Both the position numbers and the translations under genes were made by a program. The notes under the pieces are model-generated. The model ran no database searches. It saw only the letters and a list, made by a program, of their open reading frames with translations, and had not been told where the DNA came from. A stretch of 64,000 nt of DNA, taken from the NCBI GenBank assembly GCA_022823505.1, contig JAJEIA010000090.1:24036-88035 (forward strand). Direction: 5' to 3'. The DNA comes from Dehalococcoidia bacterium. GTDB taxonomy: Bacteria; Chloroflexota; Dehalococcoidia; Lucifugimonadales; UBA3495. Below are positions 19,807 to 29,920 of this stretch, one piece after another (within the stretch, counting starts at the first letter, position 1; every line of letters begins with the position of its first letter).

Positions 19807-19990
19807 TCGATGTAGGTTGTTGGCGCCGAAGGTCAGACTCCGAAGGGCGCCGGACCCGGAGTGTCCCGGAATGTTTTGGCGCCCATCCCGATTGCCGGGT
19901 GAAAACTCGCGGGCCTTCGCGGGCAACCAGCTTGGCTGCCCGTCTGAGGATTGGGTCTCGTTGTTGATGGGAGCGTGTCGTCGGGACGGT

Positions 19991-20138
19991 TTACGCAGTT
20001 CGAAGTCATTCCCGCGGAAGCGGGAATCCAGTGGCCGAAATCGCTAACAGTGTTCCAGATTCGCTCACTGTTAAGTCAATGGATTCCTGCTTTTGCAGGA
20101 GTGACGGTTTTTGTAATTTCAAGGGCGTGACTCCCATG
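19991..20138 (-). mobile_element. MITE/REP-like element A, copy 1
   Basis: This ~148-bp non-coding unit holds two GC hairpins (CCCGCGGAAGCGGG and CCTGCTTTTGCAGG) separated by a conserved spacer with CAGTGTTCC, AAGTCAATGGATTCC and TAATTTCAAG. It matches element A copy 2 (22149-22298) at roughly four of five bases, in the opposite orientation. Its ends are degenerate versions of the ACTTACGCGCTT terminal repeat seen in copy 2. No transposase is present, so it would be mobilised in trans. The rest of the 19807-20421 gap holds nothing else I recognise, apart from a fragment of element B's right end near 20137-20168. Confidence 0.7.
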
Positions 20139-20168
20139 ACAGTTCCAACGATAGTGGGTACGCGTGAG
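20137..20168 (+). repeat. Remnant of element B right end
   Basis: GACAGTTC followed by TGGGTACGCGTGAG aligns with the right end of element B at 22301-22331 and 29731-29760. It directly abuts element A copy 1, the same A-next-to-B arrangement as at 22.3 kb. Confidence 0.5.
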
Positions 20169-22012: not shown

Positions 22013-22331
22013 CTGACGGGTACCCAGTTTGTCATCGCGAGGAGCGTAGCGACGTGGCGATCTCGTTCACGTGGCGGTGTCCGTTGCCCTGACGAGATTG
22101 CCGCCCCCATATCAAGTACGGGGTGACGCTGCTTCGCTGGCAATGACATAGGACTTACGCGCTTGAAATTACATACCTGTCATTCCTGCGAAAGCAGGAA
22201 TCCATTGACTTTATGGTGAACGAATCCGGAACACTGCTAAAGAATACGGCCGCTGGATTCCCGCTTCCGCGGGCATGACTTCGAAGCGCGTAAGTCTGAT
22301 GACAGTTCGTGTGAAACTGGATACGCGCGAG
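22013..22331 (+). mobile_element. MITE-like element B, interrupted by element A
   Basis: Left end CTGACGGGTACCCAGTTT (22013-22030) and right end AAACTGGATACGCGCGAG (22314-22331) are imperfect inverted repeats. The left interior carries GTCATCGCGAGGAGCG and GACGTGGCGATCTCG, matching the intact copy at 29624-29760. The interior is split by element A at 22149-22298. The 21886-22707 gap between genes contains only these elements and the palindrome at 22385-22496. Confidence 0.7.
22149..22298 (+). mobile_element. MITE-like element A, copy 2, nested in element B
   Basis: Perfect 13-bp terminal inverted repeats GACTTACGCGCTT (22152-22164) and AAGCGCGTAAGTC (22284-22296) bound a ~145-bp core with two hairpins. 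The sequence ATGACA occurs directly on both sides (22143-22148 and 22299-22304), consistent with a target duplication inside element B. No coding capacity. Confidence 0.75.
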
Positions 22332-22384
22332 TTGGGGATGATGTGGCGAGGGCCATCGAGGGTACCCGGTTTGCGGCGGGGAAA

Positions 22385-22496
22385 CGTCAGAGGAGGGATT
22401 TTCTGGATTTGGGGATTACCAGGATTGGAACCGTACCGCGCTGGGGCTCTCCCAATCCTGTCAAATCGTAAAATCCCGTGAAACCCGTTTCTGACG
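22385..22496. repeat. Long imperfect palindrome (REP-like)
   Basis: CGTCAGA at the left edge pairs with TCTGACG at the right. Inside, GGATTTTC...GGATTTG...CAGGATTGG pairs with CCAATCCTG...CAAATC...AAAATCC around a ~17-nt loop. It is non-coding and lies between the nested MITEs and the MFS gene. Confidence 0.6.
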
Positions 22497-22707
22497 ATTC
22501 ACGAAAGCGCGTACGCATGAGGCGTCAGCCCGCTGCCCTTGCAAAGGGCATTCTGGTTAGCGCTGCCGGATCCATTTGCCGCCTGACCCTGGCGTGGTTA
22601 CAATGCCTCAATCGCGGATGCCCTGCTTTGCGCCCGTCGTCTCCGACGACTTTCCGCCCGGCGCGCACCCACCCAACCTGATTACCGTCAATGGAGAGTG
22701 ATTCGGT

Positions 22708-29301: not shown

Positions 29302-29613
29302 TGCCCTAATATCGTACCACCAGCCCCGTGCTCCTCAAACGGAAGGGCCGGCGCGTATCATTCCATTTTCCGGCACGCATGACTGTTGCACCCGGGGTCC
29401 GGCAGTGGCCGCAGGGCAATTGCGTCTCAATCAGCGATGGCGTCGGAGCCGAAATTGGCAGCAACGAACGGTGAATTTTACCGGGATAAACAGGATACAC
29501 GGGATGGACAGGATGATTCGATGCGGAGGTTTTGAGTGATGGGAGGGTTCCCGGGAATTCTAGGCGCGGAGAAGTCTGCGCGTTATCGCCCACCAGGATA
29601 CAGTCCGGGCGAT

Positions 29614-29770
29614 GGTACCGAATCTCACGCGTACCCGGTTTGTCATCGTGAGGAGCGCAGCGACGTGGCGATCTCGTTCCCGCGGCGGCGCTTGTTGCCC
29701 TGACGCGATTGCCGCGCCGCGCTCGCAATCGCAGTTCGTGTGAAACTGGGTACGCGCGAGGGTACCGAAT
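29614..29770 (+). mobile_element. Intact MITE-like element B with 10-bp target duplication
   Basis: The element (29624-29760, 137 bp) has imperfect 18-bp terminal inverted repeats, CTCACGCGTACCCGGTTT and AAACTGGGTACGCGCGAG. It is flanked immediately on both sides by the perfect direct repeat GGTACCGAAT (29614-29623 and 29761-29770). The interior includes GTCATCGTGAGGAGCGCAGCGACGTGG-like sequence shared with the copy at 22 kb. It has no ORF of its own. The 29302-29920 gap otherwise contains only a short GGATAAACAGGAT-type repeat near 29480. Confidence 0.8.
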
Positions 29771-29920
29771 TTGTTGAAGATTCGATTGCCCTGGTTGCCG
29801 CCGTACCTTCTCGCGTAGTCCGACAATACGTTGCGCGCAATCGCTGTGCGCTGGAAAGTGTCTGGAATATAATTGCGTGTATCTGTCACAACCACCAGGT
29901 CAAATAAAAGGCAATAGGCG

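Follow-up and report, generated by a model that had tools for sequence, protein, structure and literature searches.

The 64,000-nucleotide stretch of DNA analysed here (the window) carries a 137-bp unit directly adjoined on both sides by perfect 10-bp repeats; the locus lies between what we take, from the open reading frames, to be a BioY-like gene and a histidine-kinase gene. The two ends of the unit, 18 nt each, form an inverted repeat, and because the next bases outward differ on both sides, the duplication measures exactly 10 bp. The insertion flanks are themselves parts of another repeat, a 235-bp MITE. The features are as follows:

29412..29793, no strand assigned: host element, a 235-bp MITE with ends CAGGGCAATTGCGTCT.. 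/ ..AGATTCGATTGCCCTG, split by a 147-bp insertion (137 + 10)
29614..29623, no strand assigned: left 10-bp target-site duplication GGTACCGAAT, single copy in uninterrupted host-repeat paralogues
29624..29641, plus strand: left terminal inverted repeat CTCACGCGTACCCGGTTT; the MITE consensus and the left end of the insertion sequence (IS) described below read CTCACGCGTACCCAGTTT
29642..29742, plus strand: MITE core (GTCATCGYGAGGAGCG..), a non-coding, imperfect palindrome that bears no relation to the interior of the IS
29743..29760, plus strand: right terminal inverted repeat AAACTGGGTACGCGCGAG, complementary to the left end at 16 of 18 positions
29761..29770, no strand assigned: right 10-bp target-site duplication GGTACCGAAT, an exact repeat of the left one
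22013..22331, plus strand: second, composite copy of the 137-bp MITE family, carrying a further, nested MITE of ~150 bp towards its right side; no recognisable duplication

The MITE nested in the 22013–22331 copy has ends TAGGACTTACGCG.. and a duplication of likely about 5–6 bp, TGACA. At least three other copies (L015, L021 and L027) carry an insert of this kind at the corresponding position, and 19986–20168 is a probable truncated right portion of a composite copy, ending GGGTACGCGTGAG.

We scanned the whole window for 10/10 duplications around units of 60–399 bp whose ends are complementary at 14 or more of 18 positions. The site at 29614–29770 was the sole one found, and 10 first-order Markov resamplings of the window yielded no such duplication-flanked unit. 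The MITE lacks a transposase ORF: several short ORFs overlap it, but no ORF of 60 aa or more lies wholly within it.

Because the MITE landed within another multicopy element, this genome also preserves the site in its empty form. The host repeat has five uninterrupted paralogues (on C5, C139, C135, C88 and C40) that align across the junction, so the insertion added 147 bases, the 137-bp unit plus the 10-bp duplication. At the pre-insertion site, two of the five carry a single GGTACCGAAT, one carries GGAACCGAAT and the two more distant paralogues have a diverged site. This is direct evidence of insertion. A relative with the empty site was also sought; in one genome (G001), a single contig matches the two flanking regions and not the insertion-bearing stretch. 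The host repeat has ends CAGGGCAAT.. and duplications of 7–9/10 in several copies, and the duplication of the interrupted element itself has decayed to 6/10. An IS of 1228 bp on contigs C58 and C60 has ends CAGGGCAATCGCATTT and perfect 10-bp duplications, and the transposase of the C58 copy belongs to the ISAs1 family (E = 3.7e-130). Judged by the match of its ends to this IS, the host repeat is an ISAs1-type MITE.

The same genome contains ~40 related copies of the 137-bp MITE (E < 1e-14), and the end motif CTCACGCGTACCC matches 82 times in it vs 6 for the reversed control, counts that come from searches scoring a limited number of candidates. Among 25 own-genome copies with both ends, the flanks agree at 47% of positions at a length of 10 bp, compared with 29% across copies, and none of 10,000 permutations reached 47%; flank matching at 8, 9, 11 and 12 bp gave no significant signal in these copies. 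A partly overlapping set, 37 copies drawn from this genome and its relatives, matched at 57% vs 28% at 10 bp, exceeding all 5,000 permutations. The best duplication in 50 MITE-sized copies was 10 bp in 19, 9 bp in 5 and 8 bp in 1, and was unrecognisable in the remaining 25. The earlier note, which had called for such a collection, had named copies lacking 10-bp duplications as evidence against its claim; many decayed copies and a few with 9 bp do lack them, yet 10 bp is the sole significant register. With the other copies and the empty site, its description of an intact MITE, comprising a 137-bp unit, 18-bp ends and a perfect 10-bp duplication, is borne out, and 29614–29770 is confirmed as a real MITE with a true target-site duplication. 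In a survey of 98 other genomes in which the best candidates were scored (cut-off 1e-6), the MITE was present in 10 of the 13 same-genus genomes (Dehalococcoidia/SAR202-like) and in 0 of 85 others.

A full-length IS of 1182 bp lies elsewhere in this genome, at G000:C102:3973–5154, with ends CTCACGCGTACCCAGTTT / AAACCGGGTACGCGTGAG, a 9-bp duplication (AATGCTCAC) and one 360-aa ORF in intact frame. Its left end is identical to that of the MITE consensus (18/18). The C102 transposase matches Pfam PF01609 (3.8e-12) and NCBIfam IS4_2 (NF033591; E 7e-43, 147 bits, just under the curated cut-off of 152). Its DDE residues are D100, D164 and E271, with spacers of 63 and 106, and it carries the motif Y(2)R(3)E(6)K as YRKRMQPEQYFKDGK. 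The IS4 family is defined by a single ORF with D(60–110)D(100–150)E and Y(2)R(3)E(6)K motifs (PMC2266710), and the C102 IS agrees in motif spacing, YREK and single ORF; its duplications and those of its relatives, 9 or 10 bp, likewise agree with the ~10 bp of the family. Such relatives occur in named Dehalococcoidia genomes; they share the C102-type ends, and their duplications are perfect at 9 or 10 bp. The C102 IS and these relatives are 1181–1188 bp long. The genome, G000, was obtained by binning and has 7% contamination, but the C102-type IS recurs in same-genus genomes. In L059 (3964–5302), the full-length IS is separated by 9 bp from a MITE copy; these 9 bp, AATGCTCAC, are the duplication of the IS and adjoin the MITE end.

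The closest known group of the C102 IS appears to be the IS10 subgroup of the IS4 family. IS10 and ISTth2 resemble it in having a YREK DDE transposase, a single ORF, 5′-CT ends (CTCACGCG in the C102-type IS) and a duplication near one helix turn, and ISTth2 is the best plasmid-record match of the C102 transposase, at 34% identity over 317 aligned positions; a PDB sequence search with this transposase returned no transposase. ISTth2, classed in the IS10 subgroup of the IS4 family in a Thermus survey, is 1176 bp long with a 9-bp duplication (PMC6352166), and the tabulated values for the subgroup are 9-bp duplications and 1200–1350 bp (PMC2266710). The elements described here differ in mixing 9 and 10 bp, with 10 dominant in the MITEs, in the 1182-bp length of the IS, in the end sequence CTCACGCGTACCC and in the sub-cut-off NCBIfam score.

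The assignment of the MITE to a transposase family is made, from sequence, by terminal repeats matching a full-length IS and not by the length of the duplication. The match to a full-length IS that the earlier note had asked for was found in the C102 element; its statement that 10 bp is unusually long and diagnostic of the transposase family was half right. A 10-bp duplication, about one helix turn, is normal for the IS4 family (PMC2266710), and the IS4-type partner varies between 9 and 10 bp. Moreover, the perfect 10-bp duplications of the ISAs1-type IS on C58 and C60 mean that duplications of this length come from two different mobile families in the genome, so length by itself is not diagnostic.

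Taken together, the sequence evidence suggests that the 137-bp unit is a non-autonomous MITE mobilised in trans by the IS4-family (IS10-like) DDE transposase of a resident IS, a reading to which we assign a probability of roughly 93%. Copy number, common ends, duplication register, a full-length IS with an intact transposase frame and the empty site form its demonstrated base. Counting against it are the sub-cut-off NCBIfam score, the departures from the IS10 subgroup in duplication length and IS size, the restriction of the similarity between MITE and IS to the ends, the negative transposase searches in the MITE-rich relatives G004 and G013, and the contamination of the binned genome. IS10 and IS50 move by cut-and-paste transposition with a staggered target cut, and by analogy the same chemistry is likely for the MITE. 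The resident transposase would recognise the common 18-bp ends CTCACGCGTACCCRGTTT and excise the MITE, whose 3′ ends would be joined to a target cut with a stagger of 10 or, at times, 9 bp, in this case at a site within the older ISAs1-type MITE; gap repair would then produce the target-site duplication. The C102 IS is the likely mobiliser, and we infer that its transposase moved the 29624–29760 copy.

A refinement compatible with the IS4 part of this reading is that the family is IS4-driven and the mover of this copy was not the C102 IS but a related one that has since been lost or is missing from the assembly; we consider this possible, if somewhat doubtful. Same-genome copies are mostly 77–85% identical to the 29624–29760 MITE, so that activity is probably old, and the genome's other copy of the IS, on C71, is decayed. 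The MITE-rich relatives G004 and G013 have close MITE copies, with many first-look candidates, and gave no transposase match at 1e-30. The 18-bp identity between the left ends of the MITE consensus and the C102 IS argues against this refinement. One further genome, G005, presents the reverse of the G004/G013 pattern.

An ISAs1-family transposase is also resident, and the IS of that type on C58 and C60 have perfect 10-bp duplications, but mobilisation of the 137-bp MITE by it is very improbable, as the ISAs1-type ends (CAGGGCAATCGCATTT, CAGGG..) are unlike CTCACGCGTACCC and match the host repeat rather than this MITE. The IS4-type partner has a transposase of another family. Equally improbable is a non-mobile palindromic intergenic repeat, a regulatory or RNA hairpin with coincidental flanking repeats: the 137-nt strand does fold strongly (z = −4.4), but this reading is contradicted by the empty site in the host-repeat paralogues, the register-specific duplications across many copies and the ends common to the MITE and a full-length IS. 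An Rfam search of the region gave one sub-threshold match, outside the MITE, and consensus folding of 39 copies found little covariation (2 double changes in 585 cells), which makes no case for a conserved RNA. A secondary regulatory effect of the MITE is possible.

Returning to the IS4-mobilised MITE, we found no convincing similarity to the C102 IS beyond the 18-bp ends; with only the ends in common, the MITE is not a simple internal deletion. The same IS4-type ends also enclose unrelated interiors in a 170-bp element and in a 174–191-bp group that includes two copies with duplications of 9/10 or 10/10. We tentatively suggest that one end sequence has come to enclose unrelated palindromic cores time and again (the 137-bp, 174–191-bp and 170-bp families), so that MITEs here may originate when hairpin repeats already present are captured between transposase ends, rather than through deletion of the IS, with a stagger that can be either 9 or 10 bp. 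A third interior family under these ends is probably represented by a degenerate copy at 22356–22520 (compare L046).

Like other bacterial MITEs of IS elements, these are short, non-coding and multicopy, with resident-IS terminal repeats and target-site duplications; they differ in that their interiors are not IS-derived and, under the same ends, are unrelated to one another. The MITE is well explained and ordinary in kind. The MITE/IS pair is apparently undescribed for Dehalococcoidia (SAR202-like) bacteria, as a narrow open-access literature search turned up no publication on MITEs from SAR202 or Dehalococcoid genomes. Its useful points are the clean empty site nested within another repeat and the two families of equal duplication length, which caution that length by itself names no transposase. 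Finally, CAGGGCAATCGCGTCT occurs ~100–150 bp from many G000 contig ends (e.g., C65:104521, C71:90973 and C149:148), which suggests a multicopy element that broke the assembly.
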